A DNA stretch of 64,000 nucleotides from Streptomyces sp. NBC_00237 (lineage in GTDB: Bacteria > Actinomycetota > Actinomycetes > Streptomycetales > Streptomycetaceae): assembly GCF_026342435.1 (NCBI RefSeq), contig NZ_JAPEMT010000001.1, forward strand, positions 1,606,501-1,670,500, in the 5' to 3' direction. Below the pieces are notes generated by a model. It did not search any database. It saw only the letters and a list, made by a program, of their open reading frames with translations, and was not told the DNA's origin. Positions 7,599 through 51,180 of the stretch are shown here, in pieces (position 1 is the first letter of the stretch; each line of letters begins with the position of its first letter). The translations under genes were made by a program, and so were the position numbers.

Positions 7599-7732
7599 AG
7601 TTCAGGAAGCGGGATGGCGTTGTCCTACCTGCGCGTTAGGGTCCATGAGTAGGCGGGTTGGGTGGGATGCCCGACCCCCCGTACAAAGACGCTGAGACGG
7701 CCGGAGCCGTCAGAGACGAGCAGGTGGAATAC

Positions 7733-8350
7733 GTGACGAATCTGATGCCCTACGCCGCCGGCGAGCCGTCCCTCGGTGGAGGCCTCGGCGACCAGGTCTA
7801 CAGCCGACTTCTGGGCGAGCGCATCATCTTCCTCGGCCAGCAGGTCGACGACGACATCGCCAACAAGATCACGGCGCAGCTGCTCCTCCTGGCCGCCGAG
7901 CCGGAGAAGGACATCTACCTCTACATCAACAGCCCCGGCGGTTCCGTCACGGCTGGCATGGCCGTCTACGACACCATGCAGTACATCCCGAACGACGTCG
8001 TGACGATCGGCATGGGAATGGCGGCCTCCATGGGCCAGTTCCTGCTGACCGGCGGCGCCGCGGGCAAGCGCTTCGCACTGCCGAACACCGACATCCTGAT
8101 GCACCAGGGCTCGGCCGGCATCGGTGGTACGGCCTCGGACATCAAGATCCAGGCCGAGTACCTCCTCCGTACCAAGAACCGCATGGCGGAGATCACCGCC
8201 CAGCACTCCGGCCAGACCGTCGAGACGATCATCCGCGACGGCGACCGCGACCGCTGGTACACCGCCGAGGAGGCCAAGGAATACGGCCTCATCGACGAGA
8301 TCATCTCCGCTGCTTCGGGTGTTCCGGGCGGCGGCGGCACCGGGGCCTGA
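7733..8350 (+). CDS. clpP1: ClpP1, ATP-dependent Clp protease proteolytic subunit
   Basis: This serine peptidase forms barrels that degrade proteins unfolded by ClpX or ClpC. Counted from GTG 7733 (205 residues), the catalytic triad is Ser99 (in AASMG), His124 (LMHQ) and Asp173. The [11 protein letters not shown] oxyanion segment is at residues 65-75. The frame is open to ATG 7658/7667. I prefer 7733 because AGGTGG lies just upstream and the Streptomyces ClpP1 N terminus (TNLMP) begins there; the longer form would add about 22-25 residues that mature ClpP would lose anyway. It is the first gene of clpP1-clpP2, with clpX after a hairpin, under the ClgR box. Confidence 0.94.
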
Positions 8351-8398
8351 ACCCCGTCTGTCACTGCTCCGTAACCCTGCCCCAGAGACGCCACCAGG

Positions 8399-9079
8399 AT
8401 GGTGAACACCCATATGAGCAACTTCTCCGCCCCTGACAACGGCCTGTACACGGGCCCGCAGGTGGACAACCGCTACATCGTCCCGCGCTTCGTCGAGCGC
8501 ACCTCGCAGGGCGTGCGCGAGTACGACCCGTACGCGAAGCTCTTCGAGGAGCGCGTGATCTTCCTCGGCGTGCAGATCGACGACGCGTCCGCCAACGACG
8601 TCATGGCGCAGCTCCTGTGCCTGGAGTCGATGGACCCCGACCGCGACATCTCGATCTACATCAACTCGCCCGGCGGCTCCTTCACGGCGCTCACCGCGAT
8701 CTACGACACGATGCAGTTCGTGAAGCCCGACATCCAGACGGTCTGCATGGGCCAGGCGGCCTCCGCCGCCGCCGTCCTGCTGGCCGCCGGTACGCCGGGC
8801 AAGCGCATGGCGCTCCCCAACGCCCGCGTGCTGATCCACCAGCCGTCCTCGCAGACCGGCCGCGAGCAGCTCTCCGACCTGGAGATCGCCGCCCGGGAGA
8901 TCCTGCGCATGCGGACCCAGCTGGAGGACCTGCTCGCGAAGCACTCCACGACGCCGATCGAGAAGATCCGCGACGACATCGAGCGCGACAAGATCCTCAC
9001 GGCGGACGACGCCCTCGCGTACGGCCTCGTCGACCAGATCGTCTCCACGCGCAAGAGCACGGCGTCGGCTGCGGCCTGA
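8399..9079 (+). CDS. clpP2: ClpP2, ATP-dependent Clp protease proteolytic subunit
   Basis: This is the second ClpP paralogue of about 226 residues, which in actinobacteria assembles with ClpP1 into a mixed tetradecamer. The catalytic Ser lies in [12 protein letters not shown], the His in VLIHQPSS, and the Asp in the DDIERDK region. [11 protein letters not shown] is the substrate-groove strand. Two starts are possible: ATG 8399 or ATG 8414 (MSNFSAPDN...). Neither has an ideal Shine-Dalgarno, and 8414 cannot be excluded. It follows clpP1 by 48 nt and is very likely cotranscribed with it. Confidence 0.94.
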
Positions 9080-10620: not shown

Positions 10621-11592
10621 CTACTGCTTGACGCGGACGTCGTTGCGGAGCTTGGCGATCTGCTCCGCGGTCTCCTCCATGCTCAGCGGCTGCTGGGCCG
10701 CGCTGGCGGAGCCTCCCGCGAGGGTGCTGTAGTCGGCCCAGACGCAGATGTTGGTCGTGACCAGGGCCTTGGTCCGCACGTCCTTGCCCTGGATTGCCTG
10801 GCACCGCATGAGGGCGTTGTCGAGCGAGCTCGGGCTGAAGTCCTGCGGGCTGCCCAGAAGCTTGGCGTCGTCCTTCTTCTCGGCGGTGGCCTTGTCGGCG
10901 TCGGCCTTCAGCTTGGCGAAGAAGTTGTCGAGCGCCTTCTCGGGGTCACTGATCTTGCCGTAGGCACCGTTGAAGCTCACGGACTTGACCTTCTTCAGCT
11001 TTTCGAGCGAGCTGGGGTCCGTCGGGCTCACCTTGGACAGGTCGATGTCCGTGTAGGTCATGCCCACCAGCTGCGGGTTGGCGACGCCCGCCGCGGTGAA
11101 CTCCTGCAAGGACTTGTCGTCCTTCGACGTCCCGTCGGACTTCTTCGCCTGTGTGTACGTGCCGCCGAACACCTTCTCCTGAGCGACCAGCTTGTGCGGG
11201 CCGTCGTCCGAGATGCCCCGGAAGAACGCGAAGTACGCGCCCGCACCCGCCGCCGCCAGGACGACCACCGCGAGGCCCACGATCAGGCCGGTCTTCTTTT
11301 TCTTCGGCTCCGGGCCACCGGGGTACGGCTGCTGGCCGTACGGGTCCTGCGGCGGCTGGCCGTAGGGAGGCTGCTGGCCGTACGGGGGCTGCTGGGGCTG
11401 AGCCCCGTACGGGTTCGGCTGCTGGGGCTGCTGCGGGTAGCCGTAGCCCTGCGGCGGCGGTGCCTGCTGCGGGTAGCCGTAACCAGGCTGGCCCTGCGGC
11501 GGCTGCTGGCCGTAGGGGCCGGGCTGGCCGCCGTACGGGTTCGGCTGCTGCGGCTGCTGGCCGCCGTACGGGCCGGGCTGGTTGTAACTCAT
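10621..11592 (-). CDS. Pro/Gln/Tyr-rich N-terminal, single-pass membrane protein
   Basis: This 323-residue protein is of unknown function. Residues 1-95 are low-complexity PYGQQPP-type repeats, of the kind found on actinobacterial membrane proteins. A basic stop (EPKKKKTG) precedes one transmembrane helix (about 103-124). The remaining ~200 residues form an extracellular domain with two Cys (CQ...NICVW), which could make a disulphide. The start ATG (MSYNQPG) is clear. It is transcribed alone and divergently from valS. It is conserved-looking in Streptomyces, but I do not recognise an assigned function. Confidence 0.8.
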   Translation of the reverse strand: MSYNQPGPYGGQQPQQPNPYGGQPGPYGQQPPQGQPGYGYPQQAPPPQGYGYPQQPQQPNPYGAQPQQPPYGQQPPYGQPPQDPYGQQPYPGGPEPKKKKTGLIVGLAVVVLAAAGAGAYFAFFRGISDDGPHKLVAQEKVFGGTYTQAKKSDGTSKDDKSLQEFTAAGVANPQLVGMTYTDIDLSKVSPTDPSSLEKLKKVKSVSFNGAYGKISDPEKALDNFFAKLKADADKATAEKKDDAKLLGSPQDFSPSSLDNALMRCQAIQGKDVRTKALVTTNICVWADYSTLAGGSASAAQQPLSMEETAEQIAKLRNDVRVKQ

Positions 11593-11718
11593 GTGCCGGG
11601 TTCCCCCTCCAGATGCTTATGCGTCCCGAACATCCTGTCGGACGGGTGGGACGGGACGGCTCCCGGGGGCCGCACTGTTACCAAAGAAACGCGTTTCGAA
11701 GCGGTGGCCCCGGGCCCG

Positions 11719-11724
11719 TAAACT
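11719..11724 (+). promoter_or_regulatory. -10 hexamer TAAACT, leaderless valS start
   Basis: TAAACT is followed by exactly 6 nt and the valS GTG (11731). A TTCGAA at 11695-11700 with an 18-nt spacer is a weak -35 candidate. A leader too short to hold a T-box argues against tRNA-sensing control of this gene. Confidence 0.6.
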
Positions 11725-11730
11725 GGCGGC

Positions 11731-14352
11731 GTGACCGAGAACTCTCAGACTCCGCAGCCCGCAGCCACCTCTGAATTGCCGACGACCTACACGCCGGCCG
11801 CCGTAGAGGGGCCGCTGTACGAGCGCTGGGTGGAACGCGGTTACTTCACCGCCGACGCGAAGAGCGACAAGCCCGCGTACACCGTCGTCATCCCCCCGCC
11901 GAACGTCACCGGCAGCCTGCACCTGGGCCACGCCTTCGAGCACACGCTGATCGACGCCCTCACCCGCCGCAAGCGCATGCAGGGCTTCGAGACGCTGTGG
12001 CAGCCGGGCATGGACCACGCGGGCATCGCCACCCAGAACGTCGTCGAGCGTGAACTCGCCAAGGACGGCAAGTCCCGCCACGACCTCGGCCGGGAGGCGT
12101 TCGTCGAGCGCGTCTGGCAGTGGAAGGAAGAGTCCGGCGGCCAGATCTCCGGCCAGATGCGCCGCCTCGGCGACGGCGTCGCCTGGGACCGCGAGCGCTT
12201 CACCATGGACGAGGGCCTGTCGATCTCCGTCCAGACCATCTTCAAGAAGATGTACGACGACGGCCTGATCTACCGCGCCGAGCGCATCATCAACTGGTGC
12301 CCGCGCTGCCTGACGGCCATCTCCGACATCGAGGTCGACTACCAGGACGACGACGGCGAGCTCGTCTCCATGAAGTACGGCGACGGCGAGGACACCATCG
12401 TCGTCGCCACGACCCGCGCCGAGACGATGCTCGGCGACACCGCCGTCGCCGTCCACCCCGACGACGAGCGCTACGCCCGCCTCATCGGCAAGAAGATCAA
12501 GCTGCCGCTCACCGACCGCAGCATCCCCGTCGTCGCCGACACGCACGTCGACCCGGAGTTCGGCACGGGCGCCGTCAAGGTGACCCCGGCGCACGACCCG
12601 AACGACTTCGCCATCGGCCAGCGTCACGACCTGGAGACCATCCAGGTCCTCGACGAGCGCGGCATCATCCTCACGCCCGGCCCCTTCCAGGGACTGGACC
12701 GCTTCGAGGCCCGTTCCGCGATCGTCGCCGCCCTGCGCGCCGAGGGCCGGATCGTCGCCGAGAAGCGCCCGTACGTCCACTCCGTCGGCCACTGCTCCCG
12801 CTGCAAGACCACGCTGGAGCCGCGCCTGTCGATGCAGTGGTGGGTCAAGGTCGAGACGCTCGCCAAGGCCGCCGGTGACGCCGTCCGCGACGGCCGCGTC
12901 AACATCCACCCCGCCGAGCTGACCCCGCGCTACTTCGACTGGGTCGACAACCTCAACGACTGGTGCATCTCGCGCCAGCTGTGGTGGGGCCACCGCATCC
13001 CCGTCTGGCACGGTCCGAACGGCGAGATGGTCTGCGTCGGCCCGAACGACCAAGCGCCCACGGGCGAGGGCTGGCACCAGGACACCGACGTCCTCGACAC
13101 GTGGTTCTCCTCCGGCCTGTGGCCTTTCTCGACCATGGGCTGGCCGGAGCAGACCGAGTCGCTGGAGAAGTTCTATCCGAACTCCGTCCTGGTCACCGGC
13201 TACGACCTGATGTTCTTCTGGGTCGCCCGGATGATGATGTTCGGCCTGTACGCCATGGGTGACGTCCCGTTCCGCACCATCGCCTTCCACGGCATGGTCC
13301 GCGACGAGACCGGCAAGAAGATGTCGAAGTCCAAGGGCAACGTCGTCAACCCGCTGGACTGGATGGACAAGTACGGCTCCGACGCCGTCCGCTTCACCCT
13401 GGCCCGCGGCGCCAACCCGGGCGTCGACGTCCCGATCGGCGAGGACTGGGTCCAGGGCTCGCGGAACTTCGCCAACAAGATCTGGAACGCGACCCGCTTC
13501 GCCCTGATGAACGGCGCGACCGTCGAGGGCGAGCTTCCGGCCCCCGAGCAGATGACGGCGACCGACCGCTGGATCCTGTCCCGCCTCAACACCGTCGTCG
13601 CGCAGATCGACGCGCTCTACGACGACTACCAGTTCGCCAAGCTGTCCGACGCCCTCTTCCACTTCGCGTGGGACGAGGTCTTCGACTGGTACGTCGAGCT
13701 GTCCAAGACGACGTTCTTCGCGGAGGGCGAGCAGGCGAAGGTCTCCGCCCGGGTCCTCGGCGAGGTCCTGGACGTCACCCTGCGTCTGCTGCACCCGGTC
13801 GTCCCGTTCGTCACCGAGACGCTCTGGACGACCCTCACGGGCGGCGAGTCCCTCGTGATCGCCGACTGGCCGAAGGACTCCGGTTTCCGCGACGCGGGCG
13901 CCGAGCAGGAGATCGAGCTCGTCCAGCAGGTCGTCACCGAGGTCCGCCGGTTCCGCTCCGACCAGGGCCTCCAGCCCGGCCAGAAGGTCCCGGCCGAGCT
14001 CTCCCTGGACGGTACGGCTCTCGCCCCGCACGAGGCCGCCATCCGCCAGCTCCTGCGCCTGACGGCTCCCGGCGAGGGCTTCCACGCCACCGCCTCGCTG
14101 CCCGTCGCCGGTGCCACGGTCGCCCTGGACCTCTCCGGCACCATCGACGTCGCCGCCGAGCGCAAGCGCCTCACCAAAGACCTGGAGGCCGCCAAGAAGG
14201 AGGTCGTCCAGGCGAACGCCAAGCTCGGCAACGAGGCATTCCTCGCGAAGGCCCCCGACAACGTCGTGGACAAGATCCGCGGCCGCCTGAGCAAGGCCGA
14301 GGCCGACATCGCGCGCATCACCGCGCAGATCGAGGCCCTGCCCGCCCAGTAG
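11731..14352 (+). CDS. valS: Valyl-tRNA synthetase
   Basis: This class I aminoacyl-tRNA synthetase of 873 residues charges tRNA-Val. The HIGH-type motif is [15 protein letters not shown] (about residues 53-67), and the KMSKS loop is [10 protein letters not shown] (about 529-538). The editing CP1 domain that hydrolyses Thr-tRNA-Val lies between them. The anticodon-binding helical domain follows, ending in the coiled-coil arm [20 protein letters not shown] characteristic of ValRS. The GTG at 11731 has no Shine-Dalgarno but has a -10 hexamer 6 nt upstream. The gene ends at a 20-bp hairpin. Confidence 0.98.
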
Positions 14353-37088: not shown

Positions 37089-37997
37089 ATGAGCAACAGC
37101 GCCACCCCTCGCCCCATACGCAAGGCCGTCATCCCGGCCGCAGGGCTCGGCACCCGCTTCCTGCCCGCGACCAAGGCCACTCCGAAGGAGATGCTGCCGG
37201 TCGTCGACAAGCCCGCGATCCAGTACGTGGTCGAGGAAGCCGCCGGGGCGGGGCTCTCCGACGTACTCATGATCACGGGCCGCAACAAGCGCGCCCTTGA
37301 GGACCACTTCGACCGCAACTACGAGCTGGAGTCGGCGCTCACGAAGAAGGGCGACGCCGACCGCCTCGCGCGCGTCCAGGAGTCCAGCGACCTCGCGACC
37401 ATGCACTACGTCCGCCAGGGCGACCCGCGGGGCCTTGGTCACGCCGTGCTGTGCGCCGCGCCGCACGTCGGCAACGAGGCTTTCGCCGTCCTCCTCGGCG
37501 ACGACCTGATCGACCCCCGCGACCCGCTGCTCGCCCGTATGGTCGAGGTCCAGCAGGCGTACGGCGGCAGCGTCGTCGCGCTGATGGAGGTCGACCCGGA
37601 GCAGATCCACCTGTACGGCTGCGCGGCCGTCGACGCCACCGCCGAGGGCGACGTCGTCAAGATCAACGGCCTGGTCGAGAAGCCCGCCACCGAGGACGCT
37701 CCGAGCAACCTCGCCATCATCGGCCGGTACGTCCTCGACCCGGCCGTCTTCGAGGTCCTGCACAAGACCGAGCCCGGCCGAGGCGGCGAGATCCAGCTCA
37801 CCGACGCCCTGCAGACCCTTGCCGCGGACGAGAGCGTCGGCGGACCGGTGCACGGTGTCGTCTTCAAGGGCCGCCGCTACGACACCGGCGACCGCGGCGA
37901 CTACCTGAAGGCCATCGTCCGCCTCGCCGCCGAGCGCGAGGACCTCGGTCCGGACTTCAAGACGTGGCTGCGCGGCTACGTCGCGGAGGAGATCTAA
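37089..37997 (+). CDS. galU: UTP-glucose-1-phosphate uridylyltransferase
   Basis: The 302-residue enzyme makes UDP-glucose from UTP and glucose 1-phosphate. The nucleotide-binding signature is AVIPAAGLGTRFLPATKATPKEMLPVVDKPAIQYVVEEA (residues ~14-52). The sugar-phosphate region VEKPATEDAPSNLAIIGRYVL and the C-terminal RGGEIQLTDALQTL are also present. It lies between rne and rplU, where other Streptomyces carry little or nothing. With the next two genes it forms an activated-sugar/polyol supply module for the glycopolymer genes downstream. Confidence 0.94.
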   Translation: MSNSATPRPIRKAVIPAAGLGTRFLPATKATPKEMLPVVDKPAIQYVVEEAAGAGLSDVLMITGRNKRALEDHFDRNYELESALTKKGDADRLARVQESSDLATMHYVRQGDPRGLGHAVLCAAPHVGNEAFAVLLGDDLIDPRDPLLARMVEVQQAYGGSVVALMEVDPEQIHLYGCAAVDATAEGDVVKINGLVEKPATEDAPSNLAIIGRYVLDPAVFEVLHKTEPGRGGEIQLTDALQTLAADESVGGPVHGVVFKGRRYDTGDRGDYLKAIVRLAAEREDLGPDFKTWLRGYVAEEI

Positions 37998-38251: not shown

Positions 38252-38989
38252 ATGATCGGCCTGGTACTGGCGGCGGGCGCCGGACGGCGTCTGCGTCCCT
38301 ACACCGACACGCTGCCCAAGGCACTCGTGCCCGTCGACGGCGACACCACCGTCCTCGACCTCACGCTGGGGAACTTCGCGAAGGTCGGCCTCACTGAGGT
38401 CGCGATCGTCGTCGGCTACCGCAAGGAAGCCGTCTACGCGCGCAAGGAGGAGCTGGAGAAGACGTACGGCGTCACGATCACGCTGATCGACAACGACAAG
38501 GCCGAGGAGTGGAACAACGCCTACTCCCTCTGGTGCGCCCGCGACGTCCTCAAGGAGGGTGTCATCCTCGCCAACGGCGACACGGTGCACCCGGTCTCCG
38601 TCGAGGAGACGCTGCTCGCCGCCCGCGGCAAGGGCCAGAAGATCATCCTCGCCCTCGACACGGTGAAGAACCTCGCCGACGAGGAGATGAAGGTCATCAC
38701 GGACGACAGCGACGCCGTGCAGCGGATCACCAAGCTGATGGACCCGGCGTCCGCCACCGGTGAGTACATCGGTGTCACGCTGATCGAGGGCGAGGCCGCC
38801 GAAGAGCTGGCCGACGCCCTGAAGACCACCTTCGAGCGGGACCCCGACCTCTACTACGAGGACGGCTACCAGGAGCTCGTCAACCGGGGCTTCCGCATCG
38901 ACGTCGCCCCGATCGGCGACCTGAAGTGGGTCGAGATCGACAATCACGACGACCTCGCCAAGGGCCGGGAGATCGCGTGCCAGTACTGA
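38252..38989 (+). CDS. Sugar/alditol-phosphate nucleotidyltransferase (LicC/IPCT-like)
   Basis: The 245-residue protein has a single NTP-transferase (GT-A-like) domain. The signature MIGLVLAAGAGRRLRPYTDTLPKALVPV sits at the very N terminus. VILANGDTVHP holds the metal-binding Asp, and KWVEIDNHDDL near the end supplies the second. Its closest look is to phosphocholine or inositol-phosphate cytidylyltransferases, which activate small alcohol phosphates as CDP esters, rather than to GalU. A GAAGGAGA ribosome binding site lies 6 nt before ATG 38252. Its 3' end overlaps the dehydrogenase gene by 13 nt, indicating coupled translation and probably sequential reactions. Confidence 0.85.
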   Translation: MIGLVLAAGAGRRLRPYTDTLPKALVPVDGDTTVLDLTLGNFAKVGLTEVAIVVGYRKEAVYARKEELEKTYGVTITLIDNDKAEEWNNAYSLWCARDVLKEGVILANGDTVHPVSVEETLLAARGKGQKIILALDTVKNLADEEMKVITDDSDAVQRITKLMDPASATGEYIGVTLIEGEAAEELADALKTTFERDPDLYYEDGYQELVNRGFRIDVAPIGDLKWVEIDNHDDLAKGREIACQY

Positions 38990-40068
38990 CCCGGCTGATC
39001 CCCTCACCGGTCGCCGTCGACATCTCCCGCGGGGCCCTCGACGACCTCGCGGGCCTCCTCGCCGATCAGCGGATCTCCGGCTCGGGCGCGCTCGCCATCG
39101 CCATCAGCGGCGGCTCGGGCCGGATGCTGAAGGAGAAACTGGCACCCGTTCTGCCGGGCGCCGACTGGTACCCCGTCACCGACGGCACCATCGACGCGGC
39201 CGTGCAGCTCGCCGAGGAGATGAAGGGCCGCAAGCGGTACGACGCGGTCGTCGGCCTCGGAGGCGGCAAGATCATCGATGTGGCCAAGTACGCGGCCGCC
39301 CGCATCGGCCTGCCCATGGTCGCCGTCGCGACGAACCTCTCGCACGACGGCCTGTGCTCCCCGGTGTCCATCCTTGACAACGACAACGGACGCGGCTCCT
39401 ACGGCGTGCCCACGCCCATCGCGATGCTCATCGACCTCGATGTCATCCGGGACGCCCCGCCCCGCTTCGTACGCTCCGGAATCGGCGACGCCCTCTCCAA
39501 CATCTCCGCCGTCGCCGACTGGGAACTGTCCCACCGGGTCAACGGCGAGAAGGTCGACGGACTTGCCGCCGCCATGGCCCGGCAGGCCGGTGAGGCGGTG
39601 CTGCGCCACCCTGGCACTGTCACCCAGGACGCCTTCCTGACGGTGCTCGCGGAGGCCCTCGTCCTGTCCGGCATCTCGATGTCGATCAGCGGTGACACCC
39701 GTCCCTCCTCGGGCGCCTGTCACGAGATCAGCCACGCCTTCGACCTGCTGTACCCGAAGCGCTCGGCGCTGCACGGCGAGCAGGTCGGCATCGGTGCCGT
39801 CTTCGCGATGCACCTGCGCGGTGCCCACGAGGAGGCCGGACTGTTCGCCGACGTACTGCGCAGGCACGCCATGCCGGTGCTGCCGGGCGACATCGGCTTC
39901 ACCGTCGAGGAGTTCGTCACGGCCGTGCGGTACGCGCCGCAGACGCGTCCTGGGCGCTTCACCATCCTGGAACACCTCGACCTGTCCGAGGACGGCATCA
40001 GGGACGCGTACAGCTCCCTGGTGAAGGCCGTGGGCGCGTCGGGTGGACAGCAGGACGGCGGGCGTTAG
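38977..40068 (+). CDS. Glycerol-1-phosphate dehydrogenase-type iron-containing ADH (AraM/EgsA family)
   Basis: The 363-residue protein is of the dehydroquinate-synthase/Fe-ADH fold. It has the NAD(P)-binding GLGGGKIIDVAKYAA (about 88-102) and ATNLSHDGLCSPVSI (about 113-127), the G1P-dehydrogenase signature that includes the metal Asp region. CHEISHAFD and LHGEQVGIGA carry metal-ligand His residues. Family enzymes reduce dihydroxyacetone phosphate to sn-glycerol 1-phosphate, the enantiomer used by archaeal lipids and by B. subtilis AraM. GTG 38977 starts inside the preceding gene. Paired with a nucleotidyltransferase, it suggests synthesis of a CDP-activated polyol. The exact substrate is inferred. 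Confidence 0.85.
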   Translation: MPVLTRLIPSPVAVDISRGALDDLAGLLADQRISGSGALAIAISGGSGRMLKEKLAPVLPGADWYPVTDGTIDAAVQLAEEMKGRKRYDAVVGLGGGKIIDVAKYAAARIGLPMVAVATNLSHDGLCSPVSILDNDNGRGSYGVPTPIAMLIDLDVIRDAPPRFVRSGIGDALSNISAVADWELSHRVNGEKVDGLAAAMARQAGEAVLRHPGTVTQDAFLTVLAEALVLSGISMSISGDTRPSSGACHEISHAFDLLYPKRSALHGEQVGIGAVFAMHLRGAHEEAGLFADVLRRHAMPVLPGDIGFTVEEFVTAVRYAPQTRPGRFTILEHLDLSEDGIRDAYSSLVKAVGASGGQQDGGR

Positions 40069-40251: not shown

Positions 40252-40572
40252 GTGTACGCCATCGTGCGCAGCGGTGGTCGCCAGCACAAGGTTGCTGTCG
40301 ACGACATCGTTGAGGTTGACAAGATTTCCACTGCCAAGGTTGGCGACACGGTCGAGCTTTCGACTCTGCTCGTTGTCGACGGCGACTCCGTGACCAGCGA
40401 CCCGTGGGTCCTGGCCGGGATCAAGGTCACGGCCGAGGTCGTGGACCACCACAAGGGCGAGAAGATCGACATTCTCCGCTACAAGAACAAGACCGGCTAC
40501 CGCCGTCGCCAGGGTCACCGCCAGCAGTACACGGCGATCAAGGTCACCGGTATCCCCACGGCTGCGAAGTAA
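40252..40572 (+). CDS. rplU: 50S ribosomal protein L21
   Basis: The 106-residue protein begins at GTG 40252 ([25 protein letters not shown]) and contains the L21 signature [25 protein letters not shown] near its C terminus. It binds 23S rRNA in the large subunit. It is followed after 12 nt by rpmA, the near-universal L21-L27 pair, and is transcribed from the strong promoter upstream. Confidence 0.98.
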
Positions 40573-42483: not shown

Positions 42484-42532
42484 AAAGGGGGCGTTGCTCC
42501 AAGAGCGAAACTCTTGGAGCAACGCCCCCTTT
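42484..42532 (+). terminator. 22-bp terminator after obgE
   Basis: A perfect 22-bp stem (42484-42505 with 42511-42532) with a CGAAA loop lies 42 nt after the obgE stop. It also faces the end of the pseudogene on the other strand, so it may act in both directions. Confidence 0.88.
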
Positions 42533-42544
42533 CCATGCGCTCTC

Positions 42545-43958
42545 TCCGTACGTCCTCGTGACGCGGGTCCGTATCGGCCTCGAACGTGTGGTCCGCGACC
42601 CGAGCCGCAGCCCTGCCGTCGTCCACCTCGCGCACCGCCCTCATCAAATTCCTCGGACGTCGCGATCAGCCGTGAAGAACAGCATCGGGCGCCGCGTGGG
42701 CGCGAAGTCGAACATCACGGAGGAATAGTCGGTGATCAGTACGTCCGACACCAGATACAGATCCGCGATGTCCGGGTACTTCAACACGTCGAAGACGAAA
42801 GATCGAGACGAAACTGGCCCCTGTCGTGCGACAGGCCGTCGCGCCACGGCGGTGCGTACAAGACGACCTTCTTGTCCTCCGGAAGGTCCAGCTTCTCCCG
42901 GATCTCCTTGACGCGTACGTCACGGTCGGGCGTGTACAGATAGTCGTTGCGCGGGTATCAGGTCTCGACCACCGGCCCGTCGATGTCCAAAACCGATGCG
43001 CTGGAGCATCGTGCCGTGCCAGGTCTGCACGATCACCTGGCCCGGACGGTGTTCCACCCAGTGCGGCAGGTGCGCGCTGGTGACGATGTACTTGCAGAGC
43101 GCCAGAGCCTCGAACCACTCGGTGCACCAGAACGGCACCCTCTTCAAGGTGTCCGGCAGCCCCAGTTGACTGTCCCGGACCAGCCAAAGGTGCTCCAGGT
43201 CAGTGCCCTCAGTACCAGCTCAGGATCGGTCAGGTCCGCGGGCGAGGTGCCGGAGAGGAAGCAACTAACGCCCTTCGCGCCAGTCTGCCCGCGTCAGCTT
43301 GGCCCCCAGCGGACGGCCGGAGAACTGCAGATAACCGTCGGCCACCGACAGTTGGTTCCAGCACCACCGTGTATACGTACTGTTTGCCGCTCTTGTGGTT
43401 GGAGACCCGCAGCGACACCGACGTCCAAGTGCTTGCGGTTCGTCGTGCGCGGGATGTTGCCGCCCTCGCGGCGCTGCCGGTAGTGCACACGGGCGTGGCA
43501 CAGGGTGGCGATCGATTCCGCCGCCATCAGCGAACAGAACGTCCAGGGGGCGTCCTCGTGGTAGCCGGGTGGGAACGTGAAGTCCTGGGCCTGAATGAAC
43601 TCGCGGTGGTACGCCTTGTTCCATACGACCTGAAGCAGGTCGAGGAGCTTGGGGTGAAGGGTCAGCGTAAGGCGCCGGAGGGCTCGGACTTCTTCAGGTG
43701 GGGGTGCAGCCGGTTGCGGATGGCCTTCTCGGCGAGATGGAGGACCCGCACGCGCGGGTCGAGCGCGGCGTACTCGTCCAGGATCGCACCGGACGCGTCG
43801 GGCGAGCAGTCGTCGACCGCCAGGATCTCGAAGTCGGTGAAGTCCTGGTGCAGGACAGAGCCGAGGTATTTGTGTATGTATCCCTAAATGTTGTACGTGG
43901 GGACAACAAGGTTCAATCGAGGCGTTCTACATCTGTTCGTAAGCAGCGTGCACGGCAT
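42545..43958 (-). pseudogene. Decayed GT2-TagF (glycosyltransferase/CDP-glycerol glycerophosphotransferase) gene
   Basis: On the minus strand, fragments in different frames spell a former bifunctional polymerase. From 43958 the N-terminal GT2 start reads RLNLVVPTYNI, interrupted by an amber codon (43884-43886), then continues GYIHKYLGSVLHQDFTDFEI. A large part of the GT2 domain is missing. A region VSNHKSGKQYVYTVVLEP follows in another frame. Next comes VIVQTWHGTMLQRIGF, then after a frameshift near 43,000 a second nonsense codon (42958-42960, expected Gly) before YPRNDYLY. After a shift near 42,790 the text resumes as DVLITDYSSVMFDFA. At least two stops, three frameshifts and internal deletion make it non-functional. 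It resembles the intact gene at 47099-50017 in domain order. Confidence 0.85.
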
Positions 43959-44273
43959 GCCGGGGTGCCGGTCGTGCTGTGAGGCTGGCGTGTTCGGCAG
44001 TTCGACGGGTGTTGTCAGTGCTGAGTGAAGACAAGCGGGAGCAGACGTTCGCTTTGCGGCCGCCTGGGTGAGGGGTTCCAGGGCGGTGCTGACAGTCCGG
44101 TCAAATACGGTGAAGCGGAAGTCGGGGTGTGAGGCGTCTACCCTGGAGGACCCAGGGGTGGCCACCGGCCTGTGACGTTGGTTGCACCGGAGTTTGAGGC
44201 GGGTCTCCCGGGGCAGCGGCGCGCGGAGAGTCCGGTCGGCACGGCCGGTGCGACATCATTGAGGAGCATCAGG
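43959..44273. other. Gene-free gap between pseudogene and GT2 gene
   Basis: This 315-nt gap separates divergent units. A frame extends the GT2 gene upstream to 44172 but lacks a ribosome binding site. A TACCCT at about 44142 is a possible -10. I see no gene or strong hairpin. Confidence 0.5.
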
Positions 44274-45878
44274 GTGCAACCCGCACAGATCACCGTGGTC
44301 GTCATCGTCTACAACGACGCGGACCGCATCGCCACGGCTGTCGAGTCGGCCCTTGCTCAGGGAGACGCTGTCGGTGAAGTGATCGTCGTCGACGACGCCT
44401 CCACCGACGGCACCCGCGAAGCGGTTGACGCCCTCGCCACACGGCATCCCCGGGTGCGCCCCCTGCACCGGACAGAGAACAGCGGGGGCTGCGGCAGCCC
44501 CCGCAACGACGGCATCTCCGCAGCTGCCTTCCCCTATGTGATGTTCCTGGACAGCGACGACGTCTATCCGGAGGGTGCCGCCGACGCGCTCCTCGCCGAA
44601 GCCGCCCCCGGCATCGACGTCGTTGCCGGACAGTGCGTGCGCCGCGAACTCCCCGAGGAACACGACACCGTATGGGCGCCCGCCCTCTACGACACCACCG
44701 CCGGTGCAACCCTGCCGGGCACTGTCCTCAAAGGCATCACCGCCCACCCCGAGTTCCTTATCGATACCCTCTCTGTCAACAAGCTCTACCGACGCGACTT
44801 CCTCGCTGAACACGCAGCCGTCTTCCCCGACGGCGCCTTCCACTACGAGGACTTCGTCTTCACCGCGAAGGTGTACGCGGCAGCCCCTCGTATGGCGGTC
44901 ATCGACACCCCTGTCTACGTCTGGCATGTCCGCCGCGCCGACGCCGCCCTGTCGATCTCCCTGCGCCGTGCCACCCTCGCCAACTGGGAACACCGGGTGG
45001 AGGCCCACCGCCGCGTCGTCGAGGTGTTCCGCACGGCAGGACAGGACGCTCTCGCCGTCGCCGCCCAGACCAAGTTTCTCGACTACGACCTGCCCATGTA
45101 CGTACGGGAACTCGCCCAGCGCGCACCCGACTACCGGGCCGGCTGGTGGGCGCATGCCCGTACCTACCTCGCGGGCTTCGATGACGCCGCGTACGAGGCA
45201 GCCGAAGCCCCGTCCCGCTGGCTGGCCCGTTCCCTGACGGCCTGGGAGCAGCCGGTCGAGCTGGACAGGGTCATGGGCCTGGCGGCGCAGCCTCCCTGCC
45301 TCCTGCCGCCCCCGTACACCAACGCGGCAGGTGAGCCCGTGCTGTCCGGTCGGCAGCCCGAGGTGCTGCTCGACGGACTCACGGCACTGCCCCCGCACAA
45401 GCTCCCGGTGACCGTCAACGGAACCGCGTTCGTGGGGCGCACGCTCGGGTTCACCCTGACGATCCCGGAACTCCACGGCCTGCTCGGCCCGCTGGACCCG
45501 AAACGGGTCGTACTGCGCTTGACCGACCAACGCGAAGCCCTCCCCGCGAAGATCCGCGAACAGCCCTTGCGCCGCACCGCGGACAGCTGGCAGGCCGCCT
45601 TCGAGGTGACCGCCAAGGACCTGACCGACGCCGCCCGCCTGGTGTCCTGGCGGGTGCAGGCCGACGTGGTGTGTGCGGGGGGCGAGCGCATCCCCGCCGA
45701 AGTCCGTGCCGCCCACCCCGGAGTGGCCCGCCGCAGGGTCGTACCGCGTCTGGGACGCCCCCTGCTCGTCCAGGTGCACGTGACGCCACGGGGGGCCCTG
45801 ATGGTGCGGATCGCCGGTGGGGTGCACGGAATGCTGGACGTGGTCCGCCGCCGCCTCCAGCGGCTGCTGGCCCGCTGA
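44274..45878 (+). CDS. GT2 glycosyltransferase, half-length relative to GT2-TagF paralogue
   Basis: The 534-residue protein has a GT-A glycosyltransferase domain at the N terminus: VVIVYNDADRIATAV (about 9-23), ENSGGCGSPRNDGI (68-81) and the metal-binding FLDSDD (91-96). A helical region (about 250-330) and a beta-rich C-terminal domain follow. The first ~530 residues align in layout with the GT2 half of the 972-residue protein encoded at 47099-50017, but the TagF half is absent and the protein ends in a basic stretch VRRRLQRLLAR. GTG 44274 has GAGGAG 7 nt upstream. It probably transfers a sugar to a wall polymer; donor and acceptor are unknown. Confidence 0.85.
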   Translation: MQPAQITVVVIVYNDADRIATAVESALAQGDAVGEVIVVDDASTDGTREAVDALATRHPRVRPLHRTENSGGCGSPRNDGISAAAFPYVMFLDSDDVYPEGAADALLAEAAPGIDVVAGQCVRRELPEEHDTVWAPALYDTTAGATLPGTVLKGITAHPEFLIDTLSVNKLYRRDFLAEHAAVFPDGAFHYEDFVFTAKVYAAAPRMAVIDTPVYVWHVRRADAALSISLRRATLANWEHRVEAHRRVVEVFRTAGQDALAVAAQTKFLDYDLPMYVRELAQRAPDYRAGWWAHARTYLAGFDDAAYEAAEAPSRWLARSLTAWEQPVELDRVMGLAAQPPCLLPPPYTNAAGEPVLSGRQPEVLLDGLTALPPHKLPVTVNGTAFVGRTLGFTLTIPELHGLLGPLDPKRVVLRLTDQREALPAKIREQPLRRTADSWQAAFEVTAKDLTDAARLVSWRVQADVVCAGGERIPAEVRAAHPGVARRRVVPRLGRPLLVQVHVTPRGALMVRIAGGVHGMLDVVRRRLQRLLAR

Positions 45879-45956: not shown

Positions 45957-47102
45957 TCAGCGCTCCAGGAACTCGAAGAGCTCCTCCCACCGCTGAGTGA
46001 TCGACTCGGGCGAGTACCGCTGTACGTTCTCCCGGGCGAGGTCGCCCATCCGGTCCCGCAACTCCTGGTTCTGCATCAGCCGCACCAGCTGCCGGGCAAG
46101 CTCAGGAGTGTTGCCGGGACGCGCCAGCAGCCCGTCCACACCGTCCTGGACGATCTCGTGCACGCCCGGCGCACAGTCGAAGGCCACACACGGCACCCCG
46201 CACGCCATGGCCTCCAGCAGCGCCAGCGGGAAGCCCTCGCCACGCGAGGACTGCACGAACACCGAGGCCCCGTGCAGCGCCCCGACCACGTCCCGGGTCT
46301 GCCCGGCCCACTCGACCGAATCGTCCAGGCCCAGCTCCGTGGCCTGCTTCTTGAGCGACTGCTCAAGCTCGCCCGCGCCGTACAGCTTCAGCGTCCAACC
46401 CGGCATCTGCCGAGCGGCCTCCGCCCAGGCGTCGAGCAGTATGTCGAGACCCTTCTGGTGGCTGAGCCGCCCGATGCTGACGACTGTCTTCTCCGTACGC
46501 GGAGAGACCGTCTCGGGCATCATCGGCAGCGGGTTGGGCATGAACCCCACGTTGTTGAGGCCCTTCACCGCCCACAGGTCGGCGTCCTCCTGCGTGAGCA
46601 GCAGAAGCCGGTCGATGTCCTTGTAGTGCTGAGCGACCCGGCCGAAGCGTGAGGACTGCCGGGAGTACTCGTAGCTCTCGTGGCTCATCCCGATGACCGG
46701 GTGTCCCGCCGTGTCGGCCAGCTCGACCCACTCCATCGCCCATACCTGCGTCACGACGATCATCGCGCCCGGTGCGGCGGTGCGGAACATGTGCGACAAC
46801 TTCGCGGACTTCTCCAGTATCCCGGCCTCCCGGCGGGAGTTGTGGAGCCGTGCGGCCACGTCGACCGTGCCGCGCAGCCCCTGTACCGCCTTGCGGCCGA
46901 CCGGACGCCGGTCGTACAGCGTCACCGTCTCGTACGGCGGGTCCTCCCCGAGGTCCATGGCGACCTCGGCGGGTGCGATGCCGACGACAGTGACTCGGTG
47001 TCCCCGCTCCGCCAGCAGCGAAGCCATCTGCGTCTGCCAGCGGGCCACACCGCCGAGTTCGTCGACCTCGTTGGCCACGAAGAAGATGTCGCGTCCAGTC
47101 AT
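45957..47102 (-). CDS. GT4-family glycosyltransferase
   Basis: This retaining GT-B glycosyltransferase has 381 residues. The N-terminal Rossmann domain starts DIFFVANEVDELGGVARWQTQMASLLAERGH. The C-terminal domain has SIGRLSHQKGLDILLDAWAEA and the nucleotide-sugar motif RGEGFPLALLEAMACGVPCVAFDC (E-x7-E). Such enzymes add sugars to cell-surface polymers or lipids. Its ATG overlaps the stop of the upstream GT2-TagF gene (ATGA, 47099-47102), so the two are one operon and likely act on the same polymer. Confidence 0.9.
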   Translation of the reverse strand: MTGRDIFFVANEVDELGGVARWQTQMASLLAERGHRVTVVGIAPAEVAMDLGEDPPYETVTLYDRRPVGRKAVQGLRGTVDVAARLHNSRREAGILEKSAKLSHMFRTAAPGAMIVVTQVWAMEWVELADTAGHPVIGMSHESYEYSRQSSRFGRVAQHYKDIDRLLLLTQEDADLWAVKGLNNVGFMPNPLPMMPETVSPRTEKTVVSIGRLSHQKGLDILLDAWAEAARQMPGWTLKLYGAGELEQSLKKQATELGLDDSVEWAGQTRDVVGALHGASVFVQSSRGEGFPLALLEAMACGVPCVAFDCAPGVHEIVQDGVDGLLARPGNTPELARQLVRLMQNQELRDRMGDLARENVQRYSPESITQRWEELFEFLER

Positions 47103-50017
47103 CGGCTCCGGCCCTCTCCTCCGAAGAACTTGTCCACGATCTGCGCGGCAGCGTCACCGTGGTCGTACTCGCCGTACCGGTCCACGAACTCCTTCACCTG
47201 CGGGCCGTACTGCGCGCGTACGCCGTCAAGGTCGTCCAGCACCGTGAACAGCGCCTCTTCGGTGCGCGGGACCGGACCCGGTGCCGTTTCCACGAGATTG
47301 AAGTACGTGCCGCGGATGTCCTGGGAGTACTCCTCCCAGTCGTACGCGAAGAACACCATGGGCCGCTGAAGCAGAGCGAAGTCGAACATCACCGACGAGT
47401 AGTCCGTGATCAGCGCGTCCGACGCGAGCAGCAGCGGGGTGATGTCGGGTTCGTCCGAGACGTTGACGACCCGCCCCGCCATCGCCGGAGGCAGCGCCAC
47501 CTGGTTGAGGTAGTGCGTGCGCACCAGCAGCGTGAACGTGTCGCCGAACCGCTCCGCGAACTCCTCGACGGAGAAGGGAAACTCGAACTTCTGCACCTTG
47601 CCCTGGGCATTGGCCCGGAACGTCGGCGCGTACAGCACGACAGGCAGCCCGGGACGAATTCCCAACCGCTTCTTCAGGTCCTTCACCTGCGCGCTCTCAC
47701 CCGTCGCGTCGCGCCCCTTCACCAGGGCGTCGTTGCGCGGGTACCCGGTGCGCAGCAGCTTGCTCTCCGGCATGCGGTAGGCGCGCGCAAGGGTGCGCAC
47801 GTCGTGCTCGGTACGGACCACGAAGTGGTCGAAGCGGTCCAGCGACTTCTGGTAAGAAGCCTGTTCCGTCTCCGACATCAGCCGGTAGCTCGGCTCGTCG
47901 AAGCCCATGCGCTTGAGCGCGGACCCGTGCCAGGTCTGGATGTACGTCGTCTCGGGGCGTTTGGCCAGCTTCAGGGGGAAGCCCTGGTTGTCGATCCAGA
48001 ACTCGGCCTGCGCGAGCGCCCTCAGATACTTCCAGGACCAGCGCTTGACCAGTTCCACGTCGTCCGGGAAGCCGTTGGGTTTCGCGCCCGCGTACGACCA
48101 GATCGCGTGGATGGGGGCGTTACGGCGCTTGAGCTCTTCATAGAGGGCGCGCGGACTATCGCTGTACTGCTTGCCCAGGTGGCTCTCGAAGACCACGGTG
48201 CCCTTGCGGACGGGCAGGGCCTTGATCATGCGGTGATAGCCGTCGATCTTGCGGGCGCCGGAGTTGAGCTCCTTGCGCACGTCGCGGGCCTTGCGGTACG
48301 TGGTCTTGGCGATCCGCGCGGGCAGACTGTCCATGTTGTTCTGGATCAGCGCACGCGTCTTCTGGGACGCCGTGCTGTGTTGCACGAGGTGGAACGCCAG
48401 GTGACCGCGTCCGGAGACTTCCGCCTCTATGCGGTCGCCCGCCAGCCGCGTCAGCCGCGGCTTGACGGTGATGATGCCGGTGCGTTCGATGTCGGTGTTG
48501 CCGACGGTGATTGCGTTCACCGTCAACTTCCCGTCGACCTTCAGGTGCAGCCGAACATTCCACACGTCGTCGACGATGCCCAGAGGACGCAGTTCCTTTG
48601 CCAGCGGCAGGGCGGCCTCCCAGCGCACCCTGTCGCCGTCGACGCGCACGCTGCGGACGGGGAAGTGGAACGTCTGGAGGCTTGCGCGGCGTGCCTTGAG
48701 CACGATCTCGGCGGACAGCTTCGCATCCGGACCGATCTTCTGCAGCGGGTTGACGATCGCCCCGGCGAGCTCCACGACGGTGGGGCGCTCGGTGTATCCG
48801 GTGAGACTGTTGCGCAGGTCCAGCTTGTCCACCGGCCTGGTGTGGTAGCCGAGGTCGGTGACGTCGAGCAGGGCGCGGGCGTGAGGATCCTCCAAGTGCT
48901 CCTCGCACCAGTAGATCCTTCCGTCCTTCTCCACCAGCGGCACCGCGAGCTTGCTCCGGTTCAGGAGCATGTCGATGGCCGGCATCAGGTTGTCCCAGTC
49001 CTCCTGGAGGAGGAGGTACGCGCAGATGGCGTGGGCGGGGTGCAACTCGTTGTACGCCTCGGGGGCGAAGGACTGGACGTACTCCCGGGCCATCTCGGCG
49101 AAGGCGTGCCGGTAGTCGTCGTCGAGGAACGGCAGTTCGCGCAGGTAGAGGACCAGGTCGTGCTTCAAGAACTTGATGTCCTTGTGCAGCTTCAGGTCGC
49201 CCATCGAGCGGGACTTGAGAATTTCGTCGATCCGCCGGTGGATCTCCACTCGGTCGGCGAAATTATTGATTTCGTTGCGGCGATTACTGATCGACTTCTT
49301 CTCGGTCTTCTCGACCACGTTCCAGAAGTAAACAGTATTCGGAATCAAGGTAATGCGGGAGGCTGCCAGATATGCCTGGGCAGAGAAAAGCAGGTCCTCG
49401 TAATGAATCCCCTTGGGGAAAGCGAGATTGCTTTCGATCAGGAATTCGCGCCGGTAGCACTTGTTGGTCGACAGGGTGTCGAACACCAGCAGGTCTGGCA
49501 GTTCCGCGACGGAGTCGATCGTGCGCGTGGAGTTGTACAGCCAGCGGTACCACTCGGTCGTCTTGCCGTGTCTGCTGTCGACGTGCACGCGCAGGCACAG
49601 GCCGGACACCAGATCTGCACCGGTGGTCTCGGCGGCCTCCAGCATGTTGCGGCAGGCGTTGAGTTCGAGTGTGTCGTCGCTGTCGAGGAACATCACGTAG
49701 CGGCCGCGCGCCACCGCGATGCCCTGGTTGCGCGGTTCACCGCAGCCGCCGCTGTTCTCCTCCAGCTGGATCGCCCGGACCCGCTGTGGGTGCTCGGACG
49801 CGAGATTCCTGGCCACGGTGTACGAATCGTCCGTGGAGCAGTCGTCCGCGATGATCACTTCGACGTTGTGCAACGTCTGGTCCAGGACCGACTGCACGGC
49901 CGTCGGCAACCGCTTGGCATCGTTGTAGACGATGACCACAACACTGATGTCCGGCACGGTCGTCGGGAGGCTGTCCGGCGAGGGAGACGGGCTTGACAAG
50001 GCCACCTCTGTGTTCAC
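47099..50017 (-). CDS. Bifunctional GT2 glycosyltransferase / TagF-type CDP-alditol polymerase
   Basis: The 972-residue protein has an N-terminal GT-A domain (VVVIVYNDAKRLPTAVQS; DSDD at 112-115), a middle helical/beta region, and a C-terminal TagF/CDP-glycerol glycerophosphotransferase domain (about 600-960). The latter shows IQTWHGSALKRMGFD with its catalytic His, RTGYPRND, APTFR, and the CDP-binding SDALITDYSSVMFDFALLQRPMVFF. It should both glycosylate and polymerise a polyol-phosphate chain, that is, a teichoic-acid-like wall polymer, at the inner membrane face. A patch around 49,200-49,450 is visibly less GC-rich than its neighbours, suggesting acquisition. It diverges from galE. Confidence 0.92.
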   Translation of the reverse strand: MNTEVALSSPSPSPDSLPTTVPDISVVVIVYNDAKRLPTAVQSVLDQTLHNVEVIIADDCSTDDSYTVARNLASEHPQRVRAIQLEENSGGCGEPRNQGIAVARGRYVMFLDSDDTLELNACRNMLEAAETTGADLVSGLCLRVHVDSRHGKTTEWYRWLYNSTRTIDSVAELPDLLVFDTLSTNKCYRREFLIESNLAFPKGIHYEDLLFSAQAYLAASRITLIPNTVYFWNVVEKTEKKSISNRRNEINNFADRVEIHRRIDEILKSRSMGDLKLHKDIKFLKHDLVLYLRELPFLDDDYRHAFAEMAREYVQSFAPEAYNELHPAHAICAYLLLQEDWDNLMPAIDMLLNRSKLAVPLVEKDGRIYWCEEHLEDPHARALLDVTDLGYHTRPVDKLDLRNSLTGYTERPTVVELAGAIVNPLQKIGPDAKLSAEIVLKARRASLQTFHFPVRSVRVDGDRVRWEAALPLAKELRPLGIVDDVWNVRLHLKVDGKLTVNAITVGNTDIERTGIITVKPRLTRLAGDRIEAEVSGRGHLAFHLVQHSTASQKTRALIQNNMDSLPARIAKTTYRKARDVRKELNSGARKIDGYHRMIKALPVRKGTVVFESHLGKQYSDSPRALYEELKRRNAPIHAIWSYAGAKPNGFPDDVELVKRWSWKYLRALAQAEFWIDNQGFPLKLAKRPETTYIQTWHGSALKRMGFDEPSYRLMSETEQASYQKSLDRFDHFVVRTEHDVRTLARAYRMPESKLLRTGYPRNDALVKGRDATGESAQVKDLKKRLGIRPGLPVVLYAPTFRANAQGKVQKFEFPFSVEEFAERFGDTFTLLVRTHYLNQVALPPAMAGRVVNVSDEPDITPLLLASDALITDYSSVMFDFALLQRPMVFFAYDWEEYSQDIRGTYFNLVETAPGPVPRTEEALFTVLDDLDGVRAQYGPQVKEFVDRYGEYDHGDAAAQIVDKFFGGEGRSR

Positions 50018-50193
50018 GTCCTCGGTACGTTTTGATTACTGACCCCTCACAACTGCGGGTATGCGAGGGACGGCCAACTGATGAGCCTTGAAGGATCTTG
50101 AAGGATTTCGACAGTCCTCGCCAGGCTAGCCCATGGGTGAAGCCCCTGATCCCCTGCCCAGAGATGCCCCGATCAGTGATCAAAGCGCCTCTG

Positions 50194-50199
50194 TATAGT
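50194..50199 (+). promoter_or_regulatory. -10 hexamer TATAGT, leaderless galE start
   Basis: TATAGT is followed by exactly 6 nt and ATG 50206. It is the best -10 match in this set, and no Shine-Dalgarno is present. Confidence 0.65.
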
Positions 50200-50205
50200 G
50201 CCTCT

Positions 50206-51180
50206 ATGACTTGGCTGGTAACTGGCGGTGCGGGATACATCGGTTCACACGTGGTAAAGGCTCTCGCCGATGGCGGGGAAAGCGTTGTGGTCCTTGACGA
50301 TCTGAGTACGGGGTCGGAGGCGCGGATTCCCTCCGGTGTTCCCCTGGAACGCGGCTCGGTGCTCGACCGTGCGCTCCTGGACGACGTACTGAAGAAGCAC
50401 GGTGTCACCGGTGTGGTGCATATCGCCGCCAAGAAGCAGGTGGGCGAATCCGTGGAACAGCCCCTGTTCTACTACCGAGAGAACGTGGTCGGTCTCCAGA
50501 CCGTTCTGGAAGCGTCCGTCGCCGCCGAAATCAAGCACTTCGTCTTCTCCTCCTCCGCCGCCGTCTACGGAATGCCCGACGTCGACCTCGTCACCGAGGA
50601 CACCCCCTGCCTTCCCATGAGCCCCTACGGCGAGACCAAGCTCGCGGGCGAGTGGATGGTCCAGGCCGTCGGCAAGGCGCACGGTATGGCCACCGCCTGC
50701 ATGCGCTACTTCAACGTCGCGGGTGCCGCCTCGCCCGAACTCGGCGACCCCGGCGTCTTCAACCTCGTCCCCATGGTGTTCGAGCGCATCGACGCAGGTA
50801 AGTCCCCACTGATCTTCGGTGACGACTACCCGACCCCCGACGGCACCTGCGTCCGCGACTACATCCACGTCGCCGACATCGCCTCCGCACACGTCGCCGC
50901 AGCCCACAAGCTGGTCGCCGACCCCGAGGCCCGCCTGGTGCTCAACATCGGCAAGGGCGCAGGCGTCTCCGTCGCCGAGATGATCGACGTCATCCGCGAG
51001 GTCAGCGGCCACCAGGACGTCAAGGCCGAGGTGGCCCCGCGCCGCGCGGGAGACCCCGCCCGCGTCGTCGCCGCAGCCGACCGCATCCGCACCGAACTCG
51101 ACTGGGAAGCCCGTTACGACGTACGCGACATGGTCGAGTCGGCGTGGGCGGGCTGGCGGCACCGCCACCCGCAGGGCTGA
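50206..51180 (+). CDS. galE: UDP-glucose 4-epimerase
   Basis: This 324-residue short-chain dehydrogenase-type epimerase interconverts UDP-glucose and UDP-galactose. The NAD-binding GGAGYIGSHV (about 7-16), the catalytic Ser in SSSAAVYG and YGETK (Tyr-x3-Lys) are complete. NVAGAASPELGDPGVFNLVPMV is the sugar-binding region. With galU upstream it can supply UDP-galactose for the glycosyltransferases encoded divergently. Upstream frames to 50098 are unsupported because the MTWLVTGGAGYIG start is family-typical. Confidence 0.94.
   Translation: MTWLVTGGAGYIGSHVVKALADGGESVVVLDDLSTGSEARIPSGVPLERGSVLDRALLDDVLKKHGVTGVVHIAAKKQVGESVEQPLFYYRENVVGLQTVLEASVAAEIKHFVFSSSAAVYGMPDVDLVTEDTPCLPMSPYGETKLAGEWMVQAVGKAHGMATACMRYFNVAGAASPELGDPGVFNLVPMVFERIDAGKSPLIFGDDYPTPDGTCVRDYIHVADIASAHVAAAHKLVADPEARLVLNIGKGAGVSVAEMIDVIREVSGHQDVKAEVAPRRAGDPARVVAAADRIRTELDWEARYDVRDMVESAWAGWRHRHPQG

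Follow-up and report, generated by a model that had tools for sequence, protein, structure and literature searches.

Two overlapping genes lie between rne and rplU in a stretch of 64,000 nucleotides from Streptomyces sp. NBC_00237 (contig NZ_JAPEMT010000001.1, positions 1,606,501 to 1,670,500), referred to here as the window. They code for a nucleotidyltransferase of the LicC/IPCT/PntC type (NTase) and a dehydrogenase of the AraM/EgsA type (AraM). The two genes form a conserved overlapping unit, of which a second, core copy exists in the same genome. With a rough probability of 0.55, this pair is read as a two-step precursor module leading to CDP-glycerol. AraM would reduce dihydroxyacetone phosphate (DHAP) to sn-glycerol-1-phosphate (G1P), which NTase would then combine with CTP to give CDP-glycerol, in this case CDP-1-glycerol; the G1P enantiomer, suggested by sequence comparison and structure models, is proposed with less confidence than the route itself. 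The CDP-glycerol would be used as donor by the CDP-alcohol transferases of the core cluster, whose product would be exported by a TagGH-type transporter, and also, in genomes that have one, by a TagF-type polymerase. Gene structure, duplication, conservation and co-occurrence are observed and the folds are predicted; the two reactions, the enantiomer, export and polymer are deduced from these. An earlier note on the window had proposed that the pair supplies an activated polyol of unusual stereochemistry to TagF. This interpretation is partly supported and is broadened here to a TagD-less, TagF-linked precursor module of actinobacteria.

The pair and its closest landmarks are as follows.
38252-38989, + strand: NTase, LicC/IPCT/PntC-type nucleotidyltransferase, predicted CTP:glycerol-phosphate cytidylyltransferase; ATG start, 245 aa (translation, Pfam NTP_transferase, PDB matches, model)
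38977-40068, + strand: AraM/EgsA-type dehydrogenase, predicted sn-glycerol-1-phosphate dehydrogenase; GTG start, 363 aa (translation, Pfam Fe-ADH_2, PDB matches, model, motifs)
38977-38989, + strand: 13-nt overlap of the NTase and AraM frames (open reading frame coordinates)
37089-37997, + strand: galU, UTP-glucose-1-phosphate uridylyltransferase (NCBIfam TIGR01099, 349 bits, cut-off 326.8)
40252-40572, + strand: rplU, fixed landmark 3' of the window copy (gene name from sequence)

The gene order in the window is rne, galU, NTase, AraM, rplU and obgE. The position between rne and rplU and the 13-nt overlap, both described in the earlier note, are thus borne out, with galU, which had gone unmentioned, lying between rne and NTase. 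A galU gene immediately 5' of the pair was also found by synteny in genomes G067 and G110. Among 91 loci scanned, some places being counted twice under two locus identifiers, both genes were present in 90. The exact 13-nt overlap was found in 83 of these, the remaining junctions being a 4-nt overlap (five loci), a 1-nt overlap (one) and a 20-nt gap (one). A chance overlap is ruled out by the 83 loci that share exactly the same 13 nt, and the same overlap is kept beyond the genus in G195, G297 and G158.

The pair is not a peculiarity of the window either, because the genome holds a second NTase, 87% identical to the first and accompanied by its own AraM, and because NTase was found in all 121 genomes of the genus, with two matches in eight of them. 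The core cluster consists of genes for a DUF5941/CDP-alcohol transferase, NTase, AraM, a CDP-alcohol transferase, a GT2 glycosyltransferase, an ABC permease and an ATPase. The fusion protein (locus L007, 10732-12324, - strand) joins a CDP-alcohol transferase to the uncharacterised family DUF5941, and it adjoins the core pair in every core locus of the genus whose stretch reached it. A polyprenyl synthetase gene is found close to the cluster, and the genes after the transporter are taken by us for hopanoid genes. The transporter genes correspond to Pfam ABC2_membrane and ABC_tran and are TagG-/TagH-like, the name tagGH being that of PMC13118837.

Papers are cited here by PMC number for the individual passages concerned. 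In a set of 929 genomes, a Streptomyces syntenic region araM-NTase-CDP-alcohol transferase-tagGH was described in which araM is named a G1P dehydrogenase and which is grouped with teichoic acid biosynthesis, the NTase being duplicated in 76 genomes (PMC13118837). This region is our core cluster; the passage that describes it mentions neither a substrate for NTase nor the rne-rplU site nor a link to TagF. Between the window genes and their own core copies, dN/dS (NG86) was 0.38 for NTase and 0.29 for AraM, indicating purifying selection, a ratio that is not a test of function. In a tree of 36 AraM rows the window copy falls among the core copies. The window pair is an accessory paralogue of the core pair, located at a site where pair and TagF recur together.

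Predicted activities of the two enzymes

The best sequence matches of AraM in the PDB are the G1P dehydrogenases (G1PDHs) 4rgq and 4rfl of Methanocaldococcus jannaschii (E 1e-40). Its predicted model, with a predicted local distance difference test score (pLDDT) of 87, is also nearest to 4rgq (Z 43.0, 1.9 Å over 320 residues). The Bacillus subtilis AraM chain is more distant both in sequence (E 2e-25) and in fold (Z 38.5). AraM and the archaeal forms have in common the motifs GGGxxxDxxK, SxDG, RPxSGxxH and LHGEQ, which are invariant columns in a 12-row alignment. The reading of AraM as a G1PDH, suggested by the earlier note, is thus supported by both sequence and predicted structure but is not exclusive, since the Clostridium protein 3ce9, titled glycerol dehydrogenase, ties with the characterised G1PDHs (E 5e-40, Z 42.2). 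The other glycerol dehydrogenases listed reach at most Z 36.0, leaving a G1PDH as the nearest fold.

The production of G1P by AraM for archaeal-like ether lipids was considered and is judged very improbable. Streptomyces with orthologues of G1PDH, GGGPS and DGGGPS have been listed as possible makers of such lipids, B. subtilis being the recognised case (PMC6431249), and the polyprenyl synthetase gene near the core cluster points the same way. However, AraM is mostly tied to NTase by the 13-nt overlap, an arrangement for which ether-lipid synthesis gives no reason, and no GGGPS or UbiA-type family was found in the seven core-region proteins scanned, GGGPS not having been searched for genome-wide.

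For NTase, the PDB sequence matches are Streptococcus pneumoniae LicC (52 bits), Thermotoga maritima IPCT (4jd0, 41 bits) and a PntC fusion. Its predicted model (mean pLDDT 91) has PntC as best structural match (Z 29.3, 2.0 Å, 233 residues), followed by LicC (Z 26.2) and IPCT (Z 26.1). The model therefore falls within the LicC/IPCT/PntC fold group, where sugar uridylyltransferases score similarly (Z 26-27), so that fold alone cannot settle the nucleotide used by NTase. LicC, IPCT and PntC, whose substrates are choline phosphate, inositol phosphate and phosphonates, respectively, resemble NTase in fold and sequence at 18-25% identity. The Archaeoglobus fulgidus IPCT-DIPPS, which joins a cytidylyltransferase to a membrane transferase, has a fold like that of NTase.

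Several observations on the enzymes, in addition to the tie with 3ce9, weigh against the proposed activities. AraM does not reach the equivalog cut-off of the NCBIfam archaeal G1PDH model PRK00843 (234.5 versus 413 bits) and is consequently not assigned to it. The genus, like G273, G195, G297 and G158, has a Cys just before the conserved His, at a position held by Glu in Solirubrobacterales and most archaeal proteins. CpgD is presumably related to the window NTase. In the experiment concerned, this COG1213-type cytidylyltransferase gave no product from glycerol-1-phosphate (PMC12275187). Alternatively, the substrate of the two enzymes could be a different polyol phosphate or keto phosphate, and the product a non-glycerol CDP-polyol or a nucleotide sugar. 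The Cys-for-Glu change would fit such a substrate, as would an NTase fold common to phosphonate, choline, inositol and sugar enzymes (Z 24-29), but AraM has kept the archaeal G1PDH motifs and finds its closest match in the M. jannaschii enzyme with bound DHAP; another substrate is considered unlikely.

Co-occurrence with TagF and TagD

In the genus, TagF-family genes were found in 116 of the 121 genomes, in 113 of them at E 1e-80 or better, and two are intact in the genome studied here. TagD (TIGR01518) was over its cut-off in none of the 121, and the genome of the window had no match at E 1e-3. By hand count, seventy genomes, including the latter, lack a TagD-like match of at least 54 bits, and 65 of these have TagF at E 1e-80 or better. 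NTase is the sole candidate looked for as a CDP-glycerol supply that is present throughout the genus.

Outside the genus, 396 genomes of the phylum were examined, 20 of which belong to the genus and were set aside; relatedness among genomes is ignored in all Fisher tests given here. AraM (E 1e-95 or better) was found in 15 of the 376 remaining genomes and TagF in 29, both occurring together in nine. TagF is thus present in 9/15 genomes with AraM versus 20/361 others (p 9.8e-8). As this cut-off was picked after the list had been seen, a looser one (E 1e-50) is also given, with TagF in 9/28 versus 20/348 (p 7.0e-5).

Physical clustering is found as well. In G297 a cluster of about 13 kb contains NTase, AraM, two CDP-alcohol transferases, a GT2, a GT2-TagF fusion and TagG-/TagH-like genes, so that the pair, TagF and a TagGH-type exporter are encoded together. 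The same cluster (locus L181) holds two sulfotransferase genes (7622-8656 and 11449-12576) that flank GT2-TagF, possibly indicating a sulfated teichoic-type polymer. In the genome of the window these associations are divided between the two copies, the core copy lying with ABC transporter genes and the window copy near TagF. The single TagF of G222 (368 aa) lies about 90 bp from NTase-AraM, with a GDPD gene adjoining, and in G498, by match coordinates, a gap of about 30 bp separates TagF from AraM. A scan with the G222 AraM gave 12 named loci, six from Solirubrobacterales and six from archaea. NTase is beside AraM in all six Solirubrobacterales loci and TagF is beside both in four, once upstream and three times downstream (two of these three carry the same strain number), whereas neither NTase nor TagF was found alongside AraM in the six archaeal loci.

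TagD was detected at 108 bits or more in 11 of 198 phylum genomes, none of which has the pair, and no TagD match at E 1e-11 was found in G222, G273 or G297. Among the 22 TagF genomes of this sample, 12 have the pair (nine from the genus, G273, G297 and G222), five a strong TagD and five neither. The co-occurrence with TagF, whose absence the earlier note had named as refuting its reading, was observed (9/15 versus 20/361 outside the genus, 4/6 in Solirubrobacterales and, at the site discussed below, 8/9 versus 24/95 in the genus), so that this check did not refute the reading. Its TagF-linked teichoic precursor route agrees with a conserved unit, with TagF clustering in two distant actinobacterial lineages and with the lack of TagD over the cut-off in the genus; the part that is not supported is the service of the window pair to the intact TagF 7 kb away.

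The correlation is nevertheless incomplete, and the following cases count against a simple coupling of the pair to TagF. TagF is absent from 6/15 AraM genomes outside the genus and from all 13 genomes with a weaker AraM. Conversely, TagF occurs without the pair or a strong TagD in G177, G257, G303, G301 and G306, the last two having TagD-like matches of about 60 bits. AraM occurs without a recognised NTase in G326 and G382, near a contig end in the latter. Weaker TagD-like matches (54-70 bits) in 51 of the 121 genus genomes are a possible source of CDP-3-glycerol there. One such protein (L048) has a TagD-like GxYDxxHxGH and KGDDW stretch, so a TagD-like supply may exist in genomes with weak matches; a motif scan of L048 and of a second such match (L049) found nothing.

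The five TagF-less genomes of the genus all retain NTase (in one, G108, AraM was seen adjacent to it), which implies that TagF is not the sole outlet. This persistence also fits a rival reading in which the pair works for the CDP-alcohol transferases of the core cluster and their phosphodiester product leaves through TagGH, TagF being linked only indirectly, as another envelope gene gathered at the same hot spot. NTase-AraM-CDP-alcohol transferase is the most widespread arrangement seen, from the genus to G195, G297, G158, G344 and G392, and other glycan genes occupy both rne-rplU and obgE-proB in pair-less genomes. The pairs of Solirubrobacterales and G222, however, lie by TagF with no CDP-alcohol transferase detected in the stretch (tblastn at E 1e-4 to 1e-5, which a remote one could escape), and none was found beside the rne-rplU copies of AraM. 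A purely indirect link to TagF of this kind is considered unlikely.

The rne-rplU site and the window TagF genes

Downstream of obgE, the window contains the following features.
about 42650-43964, with one weaker match to 44096, - strand: interrupted GT2-TagF remnant(s) (PF04464 pieces, one with a stop; piecewise tblastn)
44172-45878, + strand: GT2 glycosyltransferase without TagF domain (domain search)
45957-47102, - strand: glycosyltransferase (Pfam Glycos_transf_1), presumably of family GT4
47099-50017, - strand: intact GT2-TagF fusion polymerase, 972 aa (PF04464 at residues 596-964)
50206-51180, + strand: galE-like epimerase (name from sequence; start chosen by eye in the open reading frame 50098-51180)

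Where the earlier note had counted TagF-type polymerases 7 kb from the pair, there is one intact GT2-TagF, whose end is 7.0 kb away, the GT2 gene at 44172-45878 having no TagF domain. Just after obgE (42484-42532), a near-perfect hairpin followed by a T run on the minus-strand reading looks like a terminator.

The site was compared in 106 genus relatives and the window, 14 of the 120 relatives being excluded (five with a broken obgE or an adjacent contig end and nine fragmented assemblies). An AraM of more than 250 aa is present at rne-rplU in 10 of the 107 (G000, G002, G018, G067, G076, G087, G097, G106, G110 and G112), and G025 has only NTase fragments there, with neither AraM nor TagF. A TagF of more than 250 aa was found 3' of obgE, within a fetched stretch of about 10-14 kb, in 8/9 genomes with AraM at rne-rplU versus 24/95 without (Fisher p 2.9e-4; G002, G022 and G057 were dropped as their contigs end just past obgE). 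In the tree of 36 AraM rows, copies at the rplU site do not form one group, with four label changes of which at least three are forced by well supported branches, so that the site received pairs, or saw them converted, on more than one occasion. The site is a hot spot for glycan genes, with galU, galE or GT2 matches in pair-less genomes, among them G023, G024, G039 and G028.

The window pair as specific supplier of the intact TagF, as first envisaged, is not supported, because a module of similar order (GT2, galE, GT4 and GT2-TagF) occurs without a pair at rne-rplU in nine other genomes (G003, G010, G036, G037, G040, G051, G068, G071 and G078). The closest full-length relatives compared of the window TagF and GT4 (71%) lie near a pair, in G097. 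The TagF nearest to the pair, 2.6 kb away between obgE and the GT2 gene, is broken. The idea that it is kin of pair-linked TagFs only was not borne out, since its best matches among 36 TagF frames are mixed, its TagF part being closest to G098, which has no pair, and its GT2 part to G110 and G018, which have one. Further exceptions to the local association are G076, which has a pair with no TagF within the fetched stretch, and G087 and G112 (loci L165 and L167), which have AraM without NTase at rne-rplU and TagF nearby; the core copy may supply NTase in these two. Given the decay of the nearest TagF, the window copy probably either adds to the precursor supply of the TagF enzymes that remain or is being lost.

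Relation to known systems and significance

The known systems closest to the proposed module are the following. TarI and TarJ, the CDP-ribitol enzymes, form a comparable pair of reductase and cytidylyltransferase, the families being unrelated to those of NTase and AraM and the polyol different. In wall teichoic acid synthesis, TagD/TarD and TagF likewise rely on CDP-glycerol, which is made for TagF-family phosphoglycerol transferases and followed by export through TagGH. TagD nevertheless belongs to another family, with the motifs HxGH and RTxGISTT (PMC8262930), while the pair combines a LicC-like enzyme with its own dehydrogenase and G1P is the expected enantiomer. The AraM/EgsA of B. subtilis and the archaeal G1PDHs share family, fold and motifs with the window AraM, which differs in being coupled to NTase and is closer to the archaeal enzymes than to the B. 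subtilis protein. The archaeal glycerophosphoinositol route also activates glycerol-1-phosphate with CTP (as cited in PMC8262930), as is proposed for the pair, but differs in product and organisms and has no TagF.

TagF-like polymerases can accept CDP-1-glycerol, as Cps7D built a polymer from it and Cps3D did not (PMC8262930). Against this, Gram-negative GT-A/TagF fusions are tied to poly(oligosaccharide phosphate) capsules, and TagF-like domains can move hexose phosphate (PMC5974469). PF04464 is consequently no proof of CDP-glycerol use, and the link is weaker for the window fusion. In Streptomyces hygroscopicus, wall teichoic acid and lipoteichoic acid, both polyglycerolphosphates, resemble each other, and actinobacteria were reported to have no clear LtaS orthologues (PMC3196553). 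In B. subtilis the enantiomers are made from different precursors (PMC7086022). In open-licence PMC papers, no printed link of G1PDH with a cytidylyltransferase or TagF in actinobacteria was found beyond the syntenic region of PMC13118837, which does not imply its absence from print.

It is tentatively suggested, as a possibility that falls short of probable, that from Streptomyces to Solirubrobacter a CDP-1-glycerol pathway of AraM and a LicC-like enzyme replaces TagD. The teichoic polymers made by TagF, perhaps including Streptomyces lipoteichoic acid, would then carry the archaeal enantiomer, opposite to that of textbook wall teichoic acid. If so, the core CDP-1-glycerol pair would be one cytosolic route giving the stereochemistry of lipoteichoic acid, and an archaeal-type G1PDH in Streptomyces would be explained without archaeal lipids. 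Overall, as judged from sequence and models, these soil bacteria may produce glycerol phosphate in its archaeal mirror form and activate it for use in their cell-surface polymers, a step that otherwise seems to be lacking.

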